Below, piece after piece: positions 6,061 through 15,749 of a stretch of 34,754 nucleotides of DNA (position 1 is its first letter; the number at the start of each line of letters is the position of its first letter). Both the position numbers and the translations under genes were made by a program. The stretch is from Acidimicrobiia bacterium (lineage in GTDB: Bacteria; Actinomycetota; Acidimicrobiia; Acidimicrobiales; Bin134), in NCBI GenBank assembly GCA_009843865.1, contig VYCQ01000007.1, positions 1 through 34,754 of the forward strand, written 5' to 3'. The notes under the pieces were generated by a model. The model saw only the letters and a list, made by a program, of their open reading frames with translations. It was not told the origin of the DNA and did not search any database.

Positions 6061-6975
6061 ATGAAGATCTCGATATTTGACATTGACCTAAGTCGGCCTG
6101 CTGCTTCAGCGACCTCTTTGGATGCCATCAGCATGCAAATCAAGCGTAGCCAACAACAGGGGTTCAGCGGCTACTGGCTCCCCCAAGCCACCGGCATGGA
6201 TGCCTTAACGGCATTAGCCGCCATCGGATCGGGGGTGGACATACCCATGGGGGTGGCCGTTGTGCCGATCTACAACCGCCACCCGGCAGCACTAGCGCAA
6301 CAAGCATTGACGGTCAACAAAGCTCTCAACGGAAAGTTGACCCTCGGGGTAGGTGCTTCTCACCGTGTGTTTGTAGAACGGGTTTGGGGCTACAACTTCG
6401 ACCGCCCCGTCAACTACATGGCTGAGTACCTAGAAATCCTGCTGCTCTTGTTAGAAGAGAGACAAGCCTACATGAAGGGCAAGAGGCTCGTCATGAGGGG
6501 CGAATTGGACATTGAAGGCCCAGCTTGTGCTGTGATGGTGGCCGCTTTAGGACCCCGCATGTTGGAATTGGCTGGCAAAACTACAGCAGGCACCATCACC
6601 TGGATGGCGGGACAAAAAACGATTCGCGACTTCGTCGTTCCAACCATCAACGACGCAGCAGAGGCTGCTGGCCGTAGCTCCCCTCAGGTAATAGTAGGAC
6701 TGCCAGTATGTGTGACCGACAGCATCATCGCGGCCAAAAAGCGGGCTACCGCACTGCTCAGCAAAGAAGAGCAAGCCTCCTCCTACAAACAAATGCTAGA
6801 ACGAGAAGGGCTGTCTAGCGCCGGAGAAATCTGCATCATCGGCAACGAAGACCATGTGGCACAGCGCCTTGACGAATTCTTCACCGCCGGTGCCAGCAGC
6901 ATTCTGGCCGCCCCCACCGGCACGCCAGAAGAGGTGGAGCGAACCTACAATGCCCTAGCAGCACTCGTTACCTAA
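6061..6975 (+). CDS. LLM-class F420-dependent oxidoreductase
   Basis: This is a luciferase-like monooxygenase-fold protein, a soluble TIM-barrel enzyme. Its closest recognisable type is the actinobacterial F420-dependent LLM group. Visible features are the N-terminal strand, GYWLPQATGMDALTALAAIG, the VVPIYNRHPAALAQQALTVN stretch and LTLGVGASHRVFVERVWGY, where VGxSH-type cofactor-region residues are typical of the family. Length 304 aa is normal. The start is set by AGGAG about 7 nt upstream. It follows livF by 24 nt and is probably cotranscribed, so it may act on the transported substrate. That link is inference, and so is F420 rather than FMN use. Confidence 0.8.
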   Translation: MKISIFDIDLSRPAASATSLDAISMQIKRSQQQGFSGYWLPQATGMDALTALAAIGSGVDIPMGVAVVPIYNRHPAALAQQALTVNKALNGKLTLGVGASHRVFVERVWGYNFDRPVNYMAEYLEILLLLLEERQAYMKGKRLVMRGELDIEGPACAVMVAALGPRMLELAGKTTAGTITWMAGQKTIRDFVVPTINDAAEAAGRSSPQVIVGLPVCVTDSIIAAKKRATALLSKEEQASSYKQMLEREGLSSAGEICIIGNEDHVAQRLDEFFTAGASSILAAPTGTPEEVERTYNALAALVT

Positions 6976-7167: not shown

Positions 7168-9075
7168 GTGACCGATCAAAATCTGAAAGCGGGCTTGCAC
7201 ATCTGGAATCGCAAGCCGTGGTTAGCAGGAATTGTTGCAGTATCAGTGCTAACCGCTGGACTTACCTTGGCGGGATCCCCCTTATCAGCTCAAACCGCTG
7301 CGGACATCGCTGAGCGCGATCAACTAATCGCCCAACAAGAAAACCTGCTGCACACCTACCGCTGTAAGCTTGATGTGGACACCGATGCAGTACCCGGCGG
7401 GTGTCCTGACTTTACCCGCGCTGTACCCGGCACTGCTCCAGAGGAACCGACCGCTGCGGACATCGCTGAGCGCGATCAGCTAATCGCCCAACAAGAAAGC
7501 TTGCTGAACATCTACCGCGCATTAGAGCAAGCCAGCACTGAAGATGCCGAGGAGGTGGACGAAGCAGAAACAACTGCCGATTCAGATACCATAAGACTAA
7601 GCCGCGAAACCGTCAGAGGTGAGTTTGACTTAGTAAATGGCAACGCCATGCATGGTATCTTGATCCCTCGCCTCGGCCCATGGGCTAGCAGCGAAGTGTC
7701 GCCAGCCCTCAACGATGCCTCAGTGGTGTTCCGCTATACCGTGCAAATGTACAGCGCTGCATTTGACGCGGTGGCACCCTACGACGAAACCGCCGTGGGC
7801 ATCTACTCTCGGATAGGACGCCGACCCGCCTCAGAATCGCAAGACAACCTGCTGCCCAACACCGCGATCATGTATGCCTTATATCGCCTGATGCTTGATT
7901 TCGCGCCTCACCGAACCGAAGAGTGGCGCTCAATTCTGACCGACTACAACCTAGATCCTGACGACAACACCGGATTGGACTGGCCCTGTGACAGCAGCGA
8001 TCGCGCCGATGCCACCGCTGCGGCCATTGGTAACCTAGCAGCCCGCTGTACCCTAGATGCCCGCCGCAACGACGGGTTTAACCAGTTCGGCGACATCACC
8101 GGCATTGCCTGGAGCGACACCACCGGCTACAAACCAACCAACACTCCGTTTGAGTTGAACGATGCGTCGCGCTGGCAACCCCTCATCATCCCTCACACCG
8201 ATGGCGTGTTCAGATCGCAGGTTTTCGTGACCCCCCAATGGGCCAATGTAAAGCCTTTCTCAGGGTTCAACCCCAGGGACTATCGAGTTGAACCTCCAAC
8301 AGAGAGCAACCACACCAACGTTGAGGCGTATCGAGCACAAGCCCAAGAAGTGTTGCACGAGTCGGCAGGTCTTGATGATTACAAGAAAGAAATCGTTATG
8401 TTCTTCGACAACAAGCTGCGGGGATCACAGATTCTGCCCGAGGTGAAGCACTTGGTGGATGTCGTGGACTTCATTCAAGTTTCGTTCTTAGTTGAGATAG
8501 CCTCTCACGACGTGGGCGTGGTGGTCTGGCAAGAGAAACAACGCTTTGACGCAGTGCGACCCACAACTGCAATCCACCACCTCTTCGGCAGCGAAACCAT
8601 CTCAGGGTGGGGTGGTCCCGGTAAAGGTACCGTGGAGATGCCAGCCAGATCATGGCGCAGCTTCGCTAGCGTAGCCGATCATCCCGAGTACCCGTCAGCC
8701 ACCACCTCATTCTGCGGTGCCTACGCTCAGTCACTACGCAGATACGCCAATGTCGAAGATGCCACTGGCGGATACAGCGGCATCCGTGCAGCGGGCTCTA
8801 ACCCAATCGAGCCCGGTGTCACGCCAGCAGAAGATCTGGAGCTCAGCTTTGAAACGTGGAGCGAATACGAAGAAGCCTGCGCCAACAGCCGAGTTTGGGG
8901 TGGCGTACACTTCTGGCCTTCGGTGGAGGTGGCAATACCACTGGGCAACCAGATTGGCGACCTAGCCTACGAATACTGGGCGACGCTCATGGACGGCAGC
9001 GCAGACATGCAGATGCCCGCTCAGCCGCTTCCCCCGGATCCCCTTCTCGAAGAAGCCCACTTTACGGGTCGATAA
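7168..9075 (+). CDS. Exported vanadium-dependent haloperoxidase-like protein lacking the acid-base histidine
   Basis: It starts at GTG behind AAGGAG (7153-7158, 9 nt away). An N-terminal signal peptide (Lys/Arg, hydrophobic stretch about 19-36, likely cleavage near LSA-QT at 41) predicts export. Residues 43-58 and 95-110 are a duplicated helical element (TAADIAERDQLIAQQE). The C-terminal half carries the vanadium haloperoxidase/PAP2 pattern: Lys457 and Arg464 with Pro465 (K-x6-RP), Ser510 in HPEYPSATT, and Arg575-x5-His581. These match VCPO Lys353/Arg360, Ser402 and Arg490/His496. The Gly-His of the usual PSGH motif is Ala-Thr here, so the acid-base His404 equivalent is missing, and the Asp usually four residues after the axial His is Ser585. 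Vanadate binding looks possible, but halide oxidation may be altered; phosphatase or pseudoenzyme roles are alternatives. The ACP gene follows 48 nt downstream. Confidence 0.8.
   Translation: MTDQNLKAGLHIWNRKPWLAGIVAVSVLTAGLTLAGSPLSAQTAADIAERDQLIAQQENLLHTYRCKLDVDTDAVPGGCPDFTRAVPGTAPEEPTAADIAERDQLIAQQESLLNIYRALEQASTEDAEEVDEAETTADSDTIRLSRETVRGEFDLVNGNAMHGILIPRLGPWASSEVSPALNDASVVFRYTVQMYSAAFDAVAPYDETAVGIYSRIGRRPASESQDNLLPNTAIMYALYRLMLDFAPHRTEEWRSILTDYNLDPDDNTGLDWPCDSSDRADATAAAIGNLAARCTLDARRNDGFNQFGDITGIAWSDTTGYKPTNTPFELNDASRWQPLIIPHTDGVFRSQVFVTPQWANVKPFSGFNPRDYRVEPPTESNHTNVEAYRAQAQEVLHESAGLDDYKKEIVMFFDNKLRGSQILPEVKHLVDVVDFIQVSFLVEIASHDVGVVVWQEKQRFDAVRPTTAIHHLFGSETISGWGGPGKGTVEMPARSWRSFASVADHPEYPSATTSFCGAYAQSLRRYANVEDATGGYSGIRAAGSNPIEPGVTPAEDLELSFETWSEYEEACANSRVWGGVHFWPSVEVAIPLGNQIGDLAYEYWATLMDGSADMQMPAQPLPPDPLLEEAHFTGR
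7294..7498 (+). repeat. 49-bp direct repeat, 156 bp apart, in the haloperoxidase-like gene
   Basis: The 49-bp segments at 7294-7342 and 7450-7498 differ at only one base and encode the same TAADIAERDQLIAQQE helix. The offset is 156 bp (52 codons). The near-identity at DNA level suggests a recent in-frame duplication or homogenising recombination. Confidence 0.93.
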
Positions 9076-9123
9076 AAGAGTTCCCCCCTTAGCTAATCGC
9101 TAGCGAAGCCCAAGGAGCACCTT

Positions 9124-9510
9124 ATGGAAGATTTAAGAACCAAGATTCACGAGATCGTGGCTGAATCCCTTGACATTGAAGTAGACGAGGTAAGCGACGA
9201 CTTACTGCTTTACAACGACCTTGATGCCGACTCGCTGGACATTTTGGACATGAACTACCAGGTTCGTAAGACATTTGGCGTTGAGATGGCCGTAGCCCAC
9301 ATCCAACGCCACTTTGAACAAGCTGGCATCCGCTGGCTTGATGAAAATGGTGGGGTCACCAAAGAGGGCCTTGCGGTGCTCAACGATTTCATGCCCGAAT
9401 TGGATGACGGCCGAATTTCACCCGGCGACAAAGTAGAAAATGTTTTCGTGGTTCTCAAAGTAGGCGATCTCGTCAACCTCCTAAAACGAGCACTAGCTGA
9501 AAATGACTAA
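9124..9510 (+). CDS. Acyl carrier protein with long C-terminal region
   Basis: This is a carrier protein that would hold the growing acyl chain on a phosphopantetheine arm. The attachment motif is plain: DLDADSLDIL with Ser37, preceded by the acidic helix typical of ACPs and followed by a second helix. A good ribosome site (AAGGAG) lies 7 nt before ATG 9124. At 128 aa it is about 50 residues longer than a normal ACP. The third-helix region is displaced by an insert (about 60-100) before a closing VGDLVNLLKRAL helix that resembles the usual ACP end. It overlaps the KS start by 8 nt (AATGACTAA), so the two are translationally coupled and probably work together. Confidence 0.88.
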   Translation: MEDLRTKIHEIVAESLDIEVDEVSDDLLLYNDLDADSLDILDMNYQVRKTFGVEMAVAHIQRHFEQAGIRWLDENGGVTKEGLAVLNDFMPELDDGRISPGDKVENVFVVLKVGDLVNLLKRALAEND

Positions 9511-10711
9511 AGCACTGATCACCGGCGTGGGCGCGGTGTGCCCACTGGGCTGGGGAATCGACAAGTGCTGGGATGACACGGTAGCGGGCCGATCAGGTAC
9601 CGCTAGATTAGAGATAGTTGAGGTTGGAGCAGACGACTGCAAAGTGGCTGGGCAAGTTCCCGCCCGCAATGGTACTGGCTACGAATCTTCGCCTCTACGG
9701 CTTCTAGACTTCTACCGCTTCGCCGAAACAGAGGCGCTTGCACAAGCCGGTCTAGAGCGAGAAAGCGTGGTGCGTAATCCACGAGCCCGAGCGGCGGTTG
9801 CCAGCCACGGCTTCGCCTGGAAAATCGACGAGTTCACCGCTGCATGCCGTGGCAAAACGGTCAATGGAATCGACCTGTCAGAATATGTGCGACGTCCTCA
9901 AGAGGGTGCCCACGAGGGCATTGGTGCTGACTTCAGCGAACGCTATTCGGGGATTACCACCGCTTGTTCGGCAGGTGGTGTTGCAGTGCTAGAGGCTGGC
10001 GAAATCGTGCGATCTGGGCTGGCGGATATCGTTATCACTGGCGGGGTTGATGCCAACATCAACGAGGTGATCGTGGCCATCCATTCACGCATGGGCGTGC
10101 TGACCCGACACAACTCCACACCAGAAAGCGCATCTAGGCCCTTTGACGTAACTCATGCTGGGTTCGTGATCGCCGAGGGTGCCGCTGTGCTGGTAGTAGA
10201 ATCCGAGCGCAGCGTTGAAGCACGCGGCGCGCAGCCCATTGCCGAGTTGGCCGGATGGGGAACCGCAGTATCAACCGCCCATCTCACGGCAGGCTCTGAG
10301 GGAGGCGAAATACAAGCTCTGGCCATGCAGCGAGCCTTAGACAGCGGCGGTGCCTCGGTTGATGATATTGACTACATCAACATGCACGGCACCTCCACCG
10401 AAGATAACGACATTTCCGAAAGCGAAGGGGTACGGAAGGTGTTCGGCAAAACAGCCCCGCCGGTGAGTTCCACCAAAGGGGTAACAGGCCATTTACTCGG
10501 AGGTGCCGGTGCTCTTGAGGCAGTGTTTGGGGTGATGGCGATACACACCTCTACCCTGCCTCCTACCGCCAACCTCAACGAGGTAGATCCCCGATGCAGT
10601 CTGGACGACTACATCGCCGACGGGGCTAGACATGGCCCCTGCCGGGGAATGTTAACCAACTCATTCGGACTAGCAGGCTCCAACGCATCACTGTTGTTGA
10701 GGCAACCGTGA
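9503..10711 (+). CDS. Beta-ketoacyl-ACP synthase (FabF-type ketosynthase)
   Basis: This enzyme condenses an ACP-bound acyl chain with a malonyl-type extender. The thiolase-fold catalytic set is complete: nucleophile Cys155 in TACSAG, His295 in HGTSTEDND, Lys325 in STKGVTGH and His330. Length 402 aa fits FabF/KAS II and single-domain type II polyketide ketosynthases. The C-terminal NSFGLAGSNASLLL motif (the usual NSFGFGGxN form) is also present. It is coupled to the upstream ACP by overlap and to the downstream KS-like protein by a GTGA overlap. No fatty acid synthase genes of standard order flank it, so it looks dedicated to this locus rather than to housekeeping FabF. Confidence 0.92.
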   Translation: MTKALITGVGAVCPLGWGIDKCWDDTVAGRSGTARLEIVEVGADDCKVAGQVPARNGTGYESSPLRLLDFYRFAETEALAQAGLERESVVRNPRARAAVASHGFAWKIDEFTAACRGKTVNGIDLSEYVRRPQEGAHEGIGADFSERYSGITTACSAGGVAVLEAGEIVRSGLADIVITGGVDANINEVIVAIHSRMGVLTRHNSTPESASRPFDVTHAGFVIAEGAAVLVVESERSVEARGAQPIAELAGWGTAVSTAHLTAGSEGGEIQALAMQRALDSGGASVDDIDYINMHGTSTEDNDISESEGVRKVFGKTAPPVSSTKGVTGHLLGGAGALEAVFGVMAIHTSTLPPTANLNEVDPRCSLDDYIADGARHGPCRGMLTNSFGLAGSNASLLLRQP

Positions 10712-11394
10712 GAGCAATAGTTTCAACCTCAGCAAAGATCGGCTTTGGTTCTCCCTATGAATTGAACCACCGAGAATTGGTGCCGTTCCGCCATGACCGC
10801 CGCTGCGTGGCAGATTTTGAGGTGCTCACCCTAGCCTGCTTCAAGCAACTCCTAGGCGAAACCGAGGAGATATCTGGGCGCGGCTGTGGGCTGTACTTTG
10901 CTGGAGCTAAGGACACCTTGCAACTTGATGTGGACTTTTCTAACGAACTTTTCGACGCAGACGACAGGGTTAACGCGCTGACCACCATGGCGGAAGGGCT
11001 GAACCCGCTTTTACCGCTTAACAAGCTCTACAACATCGGCCTCTATCTAGCCGCTAAAGAAGGAATTGAATGCTGGCGTCACTGCCAGTACACAAATCAC
11101 AAACATGCAGACTACAGCGCTCTGGCCGCAGCAGTAAGAGACGTTTGCTCAGGAACAGTTGAGGTCGGTTTTGCTGTCTTCGCCCGGGCCTCAGGCGGAT
11201 TTGAGCTACCACAAGAGTCAATAGGCGCAGTCGGAGTTCGTGTGGTGGCTTGCAATGAAGCTGGAGATCGCACCAGCGATGCCGTAGAATTATCAGCACG
11301 ACCACAGCCTGAACTGTTGCTGGAGTTGCAACGCCTCCACGCCGATGGTGGTGGAGCTGAGTTGGCCGTTGAGCTTCCCGACGGTACCTGTTGA
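10708..11394 (+). CDS. Small degenerate ketosynthase-like protein
   Basis: I do not recognise a named family with certainty. It starts at GTG 10708, overlapping the KS stop as GTGA. Residues about 35-155 read like a worn N-terminal half of a ketosynthase: a GLYFAGAKDTL stretch, then GLNPLLPLNKLYNIGLYLAAKEGI (KS enzymes often have NPxxxPN...LA..GI). SALAAAVRDVCSGTVEVGFAVF follows, like the helix and strand after the nucleophile. No TACxxG motif is present; the position where Cys is expected falls around His131. It resembles the short beta-ketoacyl synthase-like domains (PF13723 type) of aryl polyene clusters, or a chain-length-factor-like partner. A non-catalytic partner for the adjacent KS is the best guess. 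Confidence 0.55.
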   Translation: MRAIVSTSAKIGFGSPYELNHRELVPFRHDRRCVADFEVLTLACFKQLLGETEEISGRGCGLYFAGAKDTLQLDVDFSNELFDADDRVNALTTMAEGLNPLLPLNKLYNIGLYLAAKEGIECWRHCQYTNHKHADYSALAAAVRDVCSGTVEVGFAVFARASGGFELPQESIGAVGVRVVACNEAGDRTSDAVELSARPQPELLLELQRLHADGGGAELAVELPDGTC

Positions 11395-11428
11395 TTCTGG
11401 CACTTCGCCCTGCCGCTAGGCTGGCACG

Positions 11429-12184
11429 GTGACAACGCCAACCTTACAAACTGTAAAGCCCACAGCGATTATTGTCGGCGCAACTGGCGCTATTGGCACA
11501 GCAGTATGTAAAGCCATGGCTTCAACGTGGCAATTGGTGGGAGTCAGCCGACGAGGCTTGTCAGAAGAACTGCTTGAGATTGGCGTGACTGATCTGCGTG
11601 TGGACATCACTGCCCCCGATGCTGGCGAAACGATTGAGGGTTGGCTAGATAATGCCGATTGGAGCTGCGATGCCCTTGTGATCGCAGCAGGTATCCACGA
11701 GGTGTCTCTGCTTGGCGAGTACGAAATGAAATCAGTTGAACGAATGATGTCGATCAACTTTTTCGGGCCGCTAGCTGTCACCAAAGCATTACTGGCTGGC
11801 ATGCTGGCACGGCGACAGGGGTCAATCGTCTGGGTCAGCTCGGTGCGCGGCGAGCTCGGCGATCCCGGACAAGTTGCTTATGGAGCTTCTAAAGGAGCGA
11901 TGAACTCGGCCATCAGCTCTTTGGCCCGCGAGGTGGGACGACGCAAAGTACGGGCCAATGTCGTGGCTCCCGGGGTGATCAACTCCCCCATGACCGATGT
12001 GCTGGCTCAGAACTGGCAAGAATCCCTCACAAAGCGCAACCCCTTAGGCCGCATGGCAAATCCTGAGGAAGTGGCAGCTGTCATAGGTTGGTTAGCTGGA
12101 CCCAAAAGCTCCTATATAACCGGCACAATCGTGAATGTGGATTGCGGAGAACAAGCAGCGATGCTGAAAGAACCAGCAACTTAG
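11429..12184 (+). CDS. SDR-family 3-oxoacyl-ACP reductase-like enzyme
   Basis: This is a Rossmann-fold short-chain dehydrogenase, probably reducing a beta-keto group on the ACP-bound chain with NAD(P)H. The nucleotide-binding motif is GATGAIG (residues 17-23), the usual NNAG motif reads AAGI (86-89), and the catalytic set is intact: Ser138, Tyr151 and Lys155 (YGASK), the same spacing as E. coli FabG. PGxxxSPM lies near 181-188, and the C-terminus has VNVDCG. The GTG start at 11429 has no strong ribosome site; it lies 34 nt after the KS-like gene and is probably in the same transcript. It converges on the minus-strand trio with only 22 nt between stops. Confidence 0.88.
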   Translation: MTTPTLQTVKPTAIIVGATGAIGTAVCKAMASTWQLVGVSRRGLSEELLEIGVTDLRVDITAPDAGETIEGWLDNADWSCDALVIAAGIHEVSLLGEYEMKSVERMMSINFFGPLAVTKALLAGMLARRQGSIVWVSSVRGELGDPGQVAYGASKGAMNSAISSLAREVGRRKVRANVVAPGVINSPMTDVLAQNWQESLTKRNPLGRMANPEEVAAVIGWLAGPKSSYITGTIVNVDCGEQAAMLKEPAT

Positions 12185-12206
12185 CGAACCTATGATAATG
12201 AGACGC

Positions 12207-12899
12207 TCAGGCGGTTAAACCCCCGTCAACACGAAGAGTGATTCCGGTTATCGCGCTGGCATCGTCACTGCACAAAAAGCGAACAGCTTCTGCCACCTCT
12301 TTAGCTTCAGCAGGTCGACGCAAAGCAGTGCTGGCTTTAACCTGCTTGCTATGAGACTCAGGGACAAGGCCGTCGGTGAGTTCTTCGACGTATCCTGGGG
12401 CCAACGCGTTCACCAGCACATCAAATGTGCCCAAACTCACGGCCAGAGACCTCGCTAAGCCCTCCAAACCAGCGCTGTCAGCACACAAATCAGAGCGACC
12501 TGGCAAACCCACTATCCCCGCCGCAGAGCCAACCAATACAACCCGGCCATACTCTCGTGATCTCATGTCCGCCAAGAACTGCTCGACGAAGCAATGTGCC
12601 GCCGAAATGGTGATGGGCGGATTGACCACCACACAAAGGGGCGGCCCGAACCGAGCCGTACACAGATCACCAAAACGACTGAGCGAACTCGCATCCGATA
12701 TATCTAACTCGAAAGCCGAGCCAAGCAAACCGGCATCAGCCAACTCTTTTTCTAACTCGAAGCTGACTTGATCGCCCGAATGTCCTCCAAAAGATACCGG
12801 ATGACCTGCGGTGGCCAAAGATCGCACAATGGCAACACCTAGCGGGTTAGATCCGCTGCACACAACAGCGGGTGCCTGCACAGCAGGGAGACTTCTCAT
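12207..12899 (-). CDS. Pseudo-SDR: short-chain dehydrogenase-fold protein lacking Tyr and Lys
   Basis: The overall pattern is an FabG-like SDR: an N-terminal nucleotide-binding region GSNPLG, ELDISD, a strand ending GSAAGIVG, ALAPGY and a C-terminal ITGITLRVDGG, at 230 aa. Ser125 is kept, but the YxxxK pair is lost: the equivalent positions are Leu138 and Ser142 (LCADS), and the NNAG motif is degraded to VNPPI. It should be unable to catalyse standard ketone reduction. Its ATG overlaps the upstream acyltransferase stop as ATGA, so it is coupled to that gene. A structural partner of the intact SDR on the opposite strand, a binding protein or a dehydratase-like role are possible; none is shown. 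Confidence 0.8.
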   Translation of the reverse strand: MRSLPAVQAPAVVCSGSNPLGVAIVRSLATAGHPVSFGGHSGDQVSFELEKELADAGLLGSAFELDISDASSLSRFGDLCTARFGPPLCVVVNPPITISAAHCFVEQFLADMRSREYGRVVLVGSAAGIVGLPGRSDLCADSAGLEGLARSLAVSLGTFDVLVNALAPGYVEELTDGLVPESHSKQVKASTALRRPAEAKEVAEAVRFLCSDDASAITGITLRVDGGLTA

Positions 12900-13837
12900 A
12901 CGGCCTTCACGATGCGCTTGCGCGATATCCCAGAGTAACGGATCATGTTGAATATGCCCGCGTTAGGAAGCGACTCCACGAACAAGGTGTCATCATCGAA
13001 AGATTGCACGGTTGCCATCAAATCAAAGGGTTTCTCGATGTTGAGGGCCAGTCGTTCCCATAAATCATCAGTGCTCACTGGACCGGGGTCGCCTGTGAAG
13101 CAGTCGTAGAACTCCACTGCACTCGTGTCGGCACTTTCGATCACCTCAAGATCACTCATGGCCTTCTTCATCTCATCAGCCACCCCCGCCATCAGGGGGC
13201 AGTGGCTAGCAAAATCTATGGGCAAGCGAATGACATTGGCCTCGATCTCACTTGACAAGGTGGCCTCCACGTCTTCACGAGCTTCCAAACGGCACCCCAA
13301 TGTCACAGAACTACGAGTCATCACCCCCGAAACCCAACACCCCTCGATACCCTCCACGACTGCTGCGGTTTCAGATGGCGCAGGCCCGACAACCGAAAGC
13401 ATGCGCCCCTCACCATGACGAGCACTGGCTTCTGCGATCAAATCACCGCGGATCATCAGCAGCTTGCAGGCATCTTCAATCCAAATAGCACCCATAAGAG
13501 CTGCGGCAGCCCACACTCCACTGGACTGCCCAATAACCGCTTTAGGACGAGCCCCACGATAACGCTGACGAGTGCAGGCATACGTTAGAGCCGCCACGCT
13601 GGCCTGATACGGGCCGGGGGCCGATCCCACTTCGCCTTTGGCCAACTTGGAGACGAAATCCACCTCCAAAAAATCACTCATACGCCGCAGATCGCTGGTC
13701 TCTAACAACGAGGTCTCGCGCATGTTGTTCATGTCAATCCCGCCACCAGGAAACATCACCACTTCATGTGAGCTAGTTCCCCCTGAAACAGCGTCATCAG
13801 ATGCTAAAGACATAGAAGAAGCAGGCACCGCGGTCAC
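12896..13837 (-). CDS. Malonyl-CoA:ACP transacylase-like acyltransferase
   Basis: This is a FabD-type acyltransferase that would load malonyl or a related extender onto the ACP. Counting from GTG 13837, the nucleophile elbow is GQSSG with Ser105, followed by Arg130 (MIRG, 25 residues later as in FabD) and His212 (SHCPLM). The N-terminal FPGQGSQ motif has become FPGGGI, so the oxyanion region is not standard. The GTG at 13837 overlaps the stop of the DUF1330-like gene as GTGA, with GGAGG just upstream; GTG 13828 and ATG 13813 are alternatives, and the longest frame begins at 13921. It is coupled at both ends in a three-gene operon. Confidence 0.85.
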   Translation of the reverse strand: MTAVPASSMSLASDDAVSGGTSSHEVVMFPGGGIDMNNMRETSLLETSDLRRMSDFLEVDFVSKLAKGEVGSAPGPYQASVAALTYACTRQRYRGARPKAVIGQSSGVWAAAALMGAIWIEDACKLLMIRGDLIAEASARHGEGRMLSVVGPAPSETAAVVEGIEGCWVSGVMTRSSVTLGCRLEAREDVEATLSSEIEANVIRLPIDFASHCPLMAGVADEMKKAMSDLEVIESADTSAVEFYDCFTGDPGPVSTDDLWERLALNIEKPFDLMATVQSFDDDTLFVESLPNAGIFNMIRYSGISRKRIVKAV

Positions 13838-14130
13838 ACCCCCTCCATAAACACGGTTTGCATACGAGAACATGTGCTGGCAAGTTCGACCAATTGAGCG
13901 AACGCCAAAGACCGCATCCACGCACGGGCTTGGCCTATATGAGCGAATTCCAACAGCAATAACCTGTCTGGCGGAGGCTCGCCTTGGACAGATTCAATGC
14001 TCCCGCCCTTAACCAAATAACGTCCACCATGATCAGCGACGCTGTCGGCCAAAACCATGAGGCTATCTAGGCTGTTGGTAAACGCCCCGACATCAGTCGC
14101 CGTGAGGCTAATGCTGCCGATTATCGACAT
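13834..14130 (-). CDS. DUF1330-like dimeric alpha/beta-barrel protein
   Basis: This 98-aa protein has the layout of DUF1330: a DSLMVLADSVADHGGRYLVKGG stretch, then a loop with EPPPDRLLLLEFAHIGQARAWMRS, and a closing helix. That family adopts a ferredoxin-like dimeric barrel. It starts at ATG 14130 behind GAGGAG with 7 nt spacing and leads the AT/pseudo-SDR operon. Related barrels (ABM-type monooxygenases and cyclases) tailor polyketides, so a tailoring or cyclising role is conceivable here, but no catalytic residue can be assigned. Family assignment is by pattern only. Confidence 0.6.
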   Translation of the reverse strand: MSIIGSISLTATDVGAFTNSLDSLMVLADSVADHGGRYLVKGGSIESVQGEPPPDRLLLLEFAHIGQARAWMRSLAFAQLVELASTCSRMQTVFMEGV

Positions 14131-14249
14131 GAACTGCTCCTCGCCCTAGACAAACTCTAAGAATGATATGTGATGGAATGGCCACTAGATATAGTTCGAC
14201 GGTGGACAAATGGAGAGTGCCAGCACCTACAGCCATCCTTAAGGCAGTA

Positions 14250-15101
14250 ATGGCCGATGCAACAATCATAACGGTACGACGCCACGGTAACCCTAATGGA
14301 CCCCGCATGGTGTTCAGCCACGGCTGCGGATTAGCTGCCGACCTGTACTATCCATACTGGTCACTGCTAGCGGACCGTTTTGACCTCTGCATCTTCGATC
14401 TGCGGAGCCACGGTTGGAATCAGGTTAGCCCTATAGAAAGCCTCAATATCGCAACCCTAGCGGCCGACAACCAAACCATCATTGAAGCTATCTCAACTAA
14501 TTGGGGACCAAAACCGTGCCTTGGCGTGTTCCACTCGCTATCCGCAGTGATGGCCTTAACCCACCAGCGCCACAAGCCCGACTTTACTAGCTTGGTGCTA
14601 TTCGACCCAGGCTTGAAGCTACCCGGGGGCACCACCCAACACCTCGACGAAGTGTGCCAGAAGCATGCAAAACGGGCTCGACGCAGACAACGACACTTTG
14701 CGTCGCGCCACGAACTTGCCGAGATGCTCGGACAAACACCAGCCTACTCCCTCATACCGCCAAAAACCCTGTCACTGCTAGCCGATGCCACACTTCGCCC
14801 CGCCACAGGTGGCGGATACGAACTTCGCTGCCCTCCCAAACAAGAAAGCCAACTCGTTGAGTGGTATTTCGGCTTTGCCATGCAAGCAAGTCATATGATT
14901 GACAGCTTAGACATCCCAATAAAAGCAATCAGTTCCGATCCAACGATTCAGTCTTCTTTTTTGCCTGGCCTAGACCTCAACACCCTCGCTAGATTCAACT
15001 ACGACTTCATCCCCGGCAAGACACATTTTCTACAACTTGAAGGGCCCGAAGAATGTGCCACGCTCACCATTGAGTTTCTAGAGCGCCACCACTTAGCCTA
15101 A
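14250..15101 (+). CDS. Alpha/beta-hydrolase fold protein
   Basis: This is a soluble hydrolase, possibly an esterase or thioesterase. Counting from ATG 14250: the oxyanion-loop SHGCG follows the first core strand, the nucleophile elbow is FHSLS with Ser96, a likely acid is Asp230 (SSDP), and the catalytic His259 sits in GKTHFLQ. The elbow has Phe and Ser where Gly usually flanks the site. ATG 14250 is chosen because AAGG lies about 6 nt upstream and the fold begins right after it; the frame opens at ATG 14163, which would add 29 unfold-like residues. It is divergent from the DUF1330-AT-SDR operon by about 120 nt, so it may share regulation and release the product of that locus. Confidence 0.8.
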   Translation: MADATIITVRRHGNPNGPRMVFSHGCGLAADLYYPYWSLLADRFDLCIFDLRSHGWNQVSPIESLNIATLAADNQTIIEAISTNWGPKPCLGVFHSLSAVMALTHQRHKPDFTSLVLFDPGLKLPGGTTQHLDEVCQKHAKRARRRQRHFASRHELAEMLGQTPAYSLIPPKTLSLLADATLRPATGGGYELRCPPKQESQLVEWYFGFAMQASHMIDSLDIPIKAISSDPTIQSSFLPGLDLNTLARFNYDFIPGKTHFLQLEGPEECATLTIEFLERHHLA

Positions 15102-15203: not shown

Positions 15204-15749
15204 ATGGCTAATACGACACACTCAGACAGCAGCGGCACAAAGACCCGCCGCAACCGAGGCCCACGCATCGCCAAACCGCGCTTGAGGTTTGGTAAAGGCT
15301 CCCCGGAAGACGGCTACCTCGGCCAGTTTTTCGGCGCTCACTTTGCTGAGCTGTACCTAATCTTCCGGGTGGGCTTTGCCATTATGACCCTGATGCATGG
15401 TCTTCAGAAGACATTTCTACTGTGGGGCTTCCCCGCAGATCAAGACCTAGACCCTGCCGTAGACATTGCTGGCATTGTGGAGTTGATCGCTGCCTTCTTA
15501 ATCGGTTTCGGCATACTCACTCGAATAGCGGCTGGTGCCATGATGGTGGTAGCCGCATTAGCCTTCTTCTTGATTCACCTAGAACGGGGGCTATGGCCCC
15601 ACTACTGGGATGCGCATCATGGCTTCGACACCCTCCACCACGGTGGAGAGGTTGTAATACTACACTTTTTGTGTGCGTGGGTGATCGGCATCCTAGGCAG
15701 CGGCAAGTGGGGATTAGAACGTCGCCTAACTGGCAAAGAACTCCTCTAA
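15204..15749 (+). CDS. DoxX-family membrane protein
   Basis: It has an N-terminal basic, low-complexity tail (about 1-45) and then four hydrophobic segments, with the DoxX pattern FRVGFAIMTLMHGLQKTF, GIVELIAAFLIGFGILTRIAAGAMM, a loop rich in His and Trp (HYWDAHHGFDTLHHGGE) and a final membrane helix. DoxX/DoxD proteins are small integral membrane proteins tied to redox or quinone chemistry in several bacteria; the exact reaction here is unknown. ATG 15204 follows GGTGG at short distance. It is separated from the alpha/beta hydrolase by about 100 nt. Confidence 0.85.
   Translation: MANTTHSDSSGTKTRRNRGPRIAKPRLRFGKGSPEDGYLGQFFGAHFAELYLIFRVGFAIMTLMHGLQKTFLLWGFPADQDLDPAVDIAGIVELIAAFLIGFGILTRIAAGAMMVVAALAFFLIHLERGLWPHYWDAHHGFDTLHHGGEVVILHFLCAWVIGILGSGKWGLERRLTGKELL

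Follow-up and report, generated by a model that had tools for sequence, protein, structure and literature searches.

The 34,754-nt stretch of DNA analysed here (the window) is contig C28 of an Acidimicrobiia genome (G000; 1.79 Mb, 98% complete) whose genus is close to Ca. Poriferisocius. It carries genes for a discrete acyl carrier protein (ACP), a ketosynthase (KS), a conserved partner protein, a ketoreductase (KR) and a malonyl-transferase-type acyltransferase (AT) beside that of an exported vanadium-dependent haloperoxidase (VHPO). We read this set, with a probability of roughly two in three, as a dedicated and horizontally shared biosynthetic cluster of the type II polyketide synthase (PKS) or fatty acid synthase (FAS) kind in sponge-type Acidimicrobiia. 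ORF calls and family searches recovered every open reading frame named in an initial annotation of the locus at its coordinates, that is VHPO, ACP, intact KS, KR-type SDR, AT, pseudo-SDR, a DUF1330 protein and an alpha/beta hydrolase, and bore out its 4- and 8-nt overlaps and two converging gene blocks, which meet at 12184/12207. Promoter and terminator scans returned sites no more numerous than in shuffled sequences. Catalytic residues and export signals are readings of the sequence throughout, the latter assigned by eye.

A coupled carrier protein, ketosynthase and partner protein

The ACP (9124–9510, forward strand) has 128 residues, including a C-terminal extension, and its PP-binding domain holds an invariant Ser37 within a DSL motif. 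The KS that follows on the same strand (9503–10711) is assigned to the FabF type by family models, and its residues C155, H295, K325 and H330 are invariant in six orthologues. The locus thus has both a discrete ACP with a phosphopantetheine serine and a discrete KS with the Cys-His-His set (C155, H295, H330) of type II PKS and FAS systems. The ACP and KS genes overlap by 8 nt, and the KS gene overlaps by 4 nt with that of the 228-residue partner protein (10708–11394, forward strand), an arrangement that supports translational coupling of the ACP to an active-type KS and to the partner.

The partner is conserved in seven relatives at 58–76% identity and matches no family. It had initially been described as KS-like, which our searches could not confirm: similarity of the partner to KS, or to any Pfam, NCBIfam (E up to 10) or PDB sequence, could not be detected, hhalign against KS profiles and hmmsearch --max judged against 500 shuffles were both negative, the profile–profile alignment of partner and KS reached a z of 1.6 with 8 of 120 shuffles equally good, and a profile search of the PDB found nothing. 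Two AlphaFold models (pLDDT 33 and 36) are uninformative on this point, their low confidence being due to too few homologues. KS homology of the partner is thus not supported by these searches. Its occurrence is closely tied to the cluster, since all three genomes that encode it among the 395 of a class survey carry the cluster as well. Two exact peptide patterns, run over 84,980 species genomes, yielded seven loci; such patterns would miss distant relatives. Plasmids gave no match.

The position of the partner, directly behind the KS with a conserved overlap, resembles the placement of CLF and CYF proteins. AmcG, the CYF of cispentacin synthesis, likewise shows no recognised motif and pairs with its KS as a heterodimer (PMC10698177), and we take a CLF/CYF-like role, suggested by gene position, as a lead only. 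Could the locus then be a KS-CYF system of the cispentacin or coronafacic type, in which KS and small partner carry out a single elongation and close a five-membered ring? The layout of KS, small motif-less partner and discrete ACP is the same (PMC10698177), and the AmcF model does match the KS (E 7.5e-52). However, the KS scores 176.5 bits against an AmcF equivalog cut-off of 325, which was not exceeded in any of the 396 Actinomycetota genomes scored, G000 among them, and it scores higher as FabF (288 bits). Furthermore, the cluster proteins include neither an adenylating enzyme such as the AmcH-type 2-oxoglutarate-ACP ligase nor an AmcE hot-dog protein, and the partner matches no model, so that we regard a KS-CYF system as very improbable.

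The VHPO (7168–9075, forward strand) matches Pfam VCPO_2nd and DUF6851 as well as PDB entries 9ptr, 9l8x and 3w35, the last at E 4e-103 when searched with the VHPO profile. Its vanadate ligands K457, R464, S510, R575 and H581, with roles assigned after PMC10278073, are kept and invariant among the aligned orthologues, completing the Lys/Arg/Ser/Arg/His set by which NapH1-type membership was judged; T512 takes the position of His404 of the fungal VCPO, where NapH1 has Ser. By these residues the protein is a NapH1-type enzyme with intact vanadate ligands, for which halide oxidation is predicted.

The N-terminal export module of the VHPO (7168–7533, forward strand) consists of a signal segment and two ERDQLIAQQExLLNxYR repeats. 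Each of the 22 genus genomes that we compared, G000 included, has 5–31 occurrences of the longer pattern ERDQLIAQQExLLNxYRCxxxVDTxxVPGGC, which is absent from 24 other genomes; it seems to be a so far undescribed surface or secretion module, specific to the genus, that has been swapped onto many proteins. VHPO-profile matches in cluster-less genomes covered only this repeat region and were rejected as VHPOs. The VHPOs of G005 and of locus L034, which belongs to a genome of another family of the same order (G114), start by eye with lipoprotein-like signals in place of the repeats. Export of the VHPO thus appears to be kept as its anchoring module is exchanged between relatives.

Conservation and transfer of the cluster

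Within the genus, KS, VHPO catalytic domain and AT occur in an all-or-nothing manner: the set is complete in 7 of the 22 genomes, present as a fragment in 1 and lacking in 14. The cluster KS was found in seven genus relatives at 69–84% identity, and the VHPO catalytic domain and AT in G000 and six of these seven and nowhere else among the 22. The exception, G017, is a 68% complete genome in which the cluster is cut by the contig end and the KS survives only as an edge fragment; in the remaining genomes, KS matches are limited to housekeeping FabF or type I PKS. Fisher tests gave P values of about 5e-5 to 6e-6 for this co-occurrence, which are indicative only, as related genomes are not independent. 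The linkage in close relatives that the initial annotation called for is thus present, and the data support a set that always includes a VHPO with apparently intact vanadate ligands and an export-type N-terminus. The cluster-bearing relatives are Acidimicrobiia genomes from metagenomes, one of them Candidatus Poriferisocius aerobius and the others with RHO and CAR bin labels. Genus name and labels point to marine sponges, which would be a putative host for G000 itself.

Gene order and the ACP/KS and KS/partner overlaps are kept in relatives down to 58% protein identity, and dN/dS was at most 0.25 for every estimable gene and pair, the inactive SDR described below and the partner included, values that are rough because dS is high or partly saturated. 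Purifying selection acts on every gene tested, and as linkage and overlaps also persist across relatives, the arrangement goes beyond a chance neighbourhood. We are highly confident that the cluster is a functional unit. In G001, the cluster is flanked by genes recognised by eye as a tandem pair of DUF4143-like ATPases and a PIN-like toxin (L026 9638–12633).

The copy nearest to that of the window is L034, with 86% identity for KS and 87% for ACP, against 71–72% and 73–75%, respectively, for most copies of the same genus. Housekeeping FabF follows the opposite pattern, as it is 83–88% identical to that of G000 within the genus and only 66% in G114, and G000 and G114 group together with a support of 1.0 in a tree built from four cluster proteins. 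Judged from this discrepancy between cluster KS (86%) and FabF (66%), the cluster has been transferred horizontally, as a unit, between families.

This distribution also bears on whether the locus might make a specialised envelope fatty acid, much as the AcpXL system does for very long chains, with the VHPO as a mere passenger that serves envelope oxidation or defence. The specialised ACP 2kw2 is the second-best PDB sequence of the ACP profile, residues 6–94 of the L034 ACP align with PRK06508, the KS is of FabF rather than PKS type, and the lipoprotein- or repeat-type N-termini of the VHPOs suggest an envelope location. However, when the gene content of the cluster is compared with the acpXL, fabZXL, two fabF and lpxXL genes of the AcpXL system (PMC5613085), a second FabF, FabZ and an LpxXL-type acyltransferase are missing, and the patchy presence in the genus together with inter-family transfer fits an accessory metabolite better. 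An envelope lipid is thus an unlikely product in our view.

Further members of the unit and other loci of the genome

Downstream of the partner lies the FabG-type KR (11429–12184, forward strand; adh_short_C2 and TIGR01830), which has the YxxxK motif. Facing it, on the reverse strand, a second SDR (SDR2, 12207–12899) is predicted to be catalytically dead, as the lysine of YxxxK is absent in all orthologues; the window copy is 20 residues shorter than these. SDR2 overlaps by 4 nt with the AT (12896–13921, reverse strand), which matches Acyl_transf_1 and the MdcH/FabD models and has an invariant S133, R158 and H240, the serine within a GQSSG motif. The comparison supports assignment of both the KR and the AT to the unit. 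The first 36 residues of the AT are not conserved, and its true start is therefore probably near 13813, in which case the overlap with the DUF1330 gene (13834–14130, reverse strand; PF07045) is not required. The DUF1330 protein has a counterpart in L034 (2241–2534; 62% identity). Only in the window and in L034 does such a gene stand beside the AT, which supports close kinship of the two copies.

The forward strand continues with the alpha/beta hydrolase (14163–15101; Abhydrolase_6), a candidate release enzyme conserved in relatives, and a DoxX-family membrane protein (15204–15749; PF07681), a conserved neighbour. At the other end of the set, a gene for an LLM-class F420-dependent oxidoreductase (6061–6975, forward strand; NCBIfam TIGR03564, 286 bits, above cut-off) is conserved as well and adjoins VHPO or ACP in G001, G004, G005, G010, G021 and L034. 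LLM oxidoreductase and DoxX both stay with the cluster in relatives and, by this neighbourhood, are members of it.

A further alternative is that an acyl-chain cluster and an independent pair of VHPO and F420 enzyme, making or detoxifying reactive halogen, are unrelated neighbours that share no substrate. VHPO and LLM do exchange their relative order between genomes, and the VHPO is exported whereas chain building would be cytoplasmic. Against this, the VHPO catalytic domain never occurs without the cluster in the genus, and the two are found together in the transferred copy, which makes an unrelated pair rather improbable.

A crotonase (ECH) gene adjoins SDR2 or the hydrolase in relatives, and none lies between hydrolase and DoxX in the window. 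Its orthologue in G000 (68% identity) is found on contig C4 with a phosphopantetheinyl transferase (PPTase) gene directly behind it; the same pair lies within the cluster at L034. On C4 the two genes stand alone behind a peptide-type ABC transporter (L048, 5794–7283). These positions support the view that crotonase and PPTase are cluster members that have been relocated to another contig in G000, and a dedicated PPTase strongly supports an ACP-based pathway. The initial annotation was right about the genes it named, apart from the KS-like label of the partner, and drew the unit too narrowly, leaving out LLM and DoxX as well as the pair on C4; its view that the window holds the complete minimum set is not supported.

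The housekeeping fabD, fabH, fabG, fabF and fabZ genes, named by eye from their sequences and tblastn matches, are located together on C34. The cluster is thus neither the only fab set nor the fatty acid synthase of the genome, and its KS shares only about 40% identity with the genome's own FabF over the C-terminal part. Linkage in relatives and a separate fatty acid synthase, the two tests set beforehand, both favour a cluster dedicated to acyl chains, with the exported VHPO among its members. As to large modular PKS genes, the window has none, as was first claimed, yet elsewhere in G000 contig C17 encodes a type I PKS with two KS domains (KS-AT-DH-MT-ER-KR-ACP-KS) together with a paralogue of the alpha/beta hydrolase. 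This reducing PKS (L030 11979 to L031 1588) is accompanied by a SulP-like transporter. In G021 (C66; L023, L039), crotonase and AT of the cluster are separated by the insertion of a homologous PKS island, which also holds a broken copy of the hydrolase. Since many cluster-less genomes of the genus have such a PKS, we treat it as a neighbour and not as a member.

Proposed pathway and comparison with known systems

What would such a cluster do? The PPTase would arm the ACP and the AT would load malonyl units, after which KS and partner could condense one or a few C2 units. Reduction and dehydration of the chain may follow by KR and crotonase, its release by the alpha/beta hydrolase and an additional redox change by the F420 enzyme; we take the inactive SDR to be structural. 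Outside the cytoplasm, the VHPO could use H2O2 and bromide or chloride to halogenate or oxidise the product. ACP-bound chain assembly is, by gene content, a very probable function of the cluster. That the VHPO acts on the product is also our expectation, held with more reserve. That the chain is short, and that the haloperoxidase modifies it, is at most inferred.

Several observations weigh against a dedicated cluster of this kind. None of its genes encodes a starter-loading enzyme of the adenylation or CoA-ligase kind, and a dedicated hot-dog dehydratase is likewise missing. The partner has no assigned fold, and the inactive SDR and the DUF1330 protein are without a clear role. In addition, KS, KR, AT and crotonase belong to common families and could serve other purposes, and the extracytoplasmic VHPO could act independently, for instance by producing hypohalite for defence.

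The locus very likely represents a real and previously undescribed biosynthetic pathway; our search of the open-access literature, which left subscription papers outside, returned no description of the cluster. We tentatively suggest, as a bolder and less secure proposal, a new type II PKS/FAS-like subfamily that combines a novel KS partner with a long ACP resembling AcpXL. Its product would be halogenated extracellularly by the co-transferred VHPO, and the subfamily, exchanged between families of sponge symbionts, would be a source of halogenated sponge metabolites. The makers of halogenated sponge compounds are often not known. With its own acyl carrier system and exported VHPO, the cluster, which moves between families in Poriferisocius-type bacteria, lends itself as a defined gene set to heterologous expression, and the conserved orphan protein next to the KS, which our searches recovered from these clusters alone, could serve as a genome-mining marker.

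Among known systems, the NapH1-type VHPOs of napyradiomycin synthesis share the whole catalytic region and the vanadate ligands with the cluster enzyme. They sit among aromatic and terpenoid genes, whereas the cluster VHPO, equipped with export modules of lineage-specific or lipoprotein type, adjoins ACP and KS genes. Housekeeping FAS II (fabD-H-G-F) provides the same functions of FabF-type KS, FabG-type KR, ACP and malonyl transferase, but from its separate and complete locus. The AcpXL cluster also pairs a specialised ACP with its own KS, and differs in the genes listed above. The cispentacin (amc) cluster resembles the locus in its discrete ACP, its single active KS with a small motif-less protein behind it, and its few tailoring genes. 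In contrast to amc, however, our cluster lacks a starter ligase of the adenylating kind as well as AmcE and an aminotransferase, its KS stays below the AmcF cut-off, it has a VHPO, AT, KR, crotonase and F420 enzyme, and the likeness of partner and AmcG is positional only. As the cluster falls outside the cispentacin-type KS-CYF, AcpXL and housekeeping FAS systems, we describe it as a type II PKS/FAS-like variant. Finally, the mono-modular sup and swf PKSs of sponge symbionts are of type I, as is the reducing PKS on C17; compared with SwfA (KS-AT-DH-ER-KR-ACP; PMC3908369), the C17 protein has an extra methyltransferase domain and a second KS, whereas the cluster itself is built from discrete proteins.

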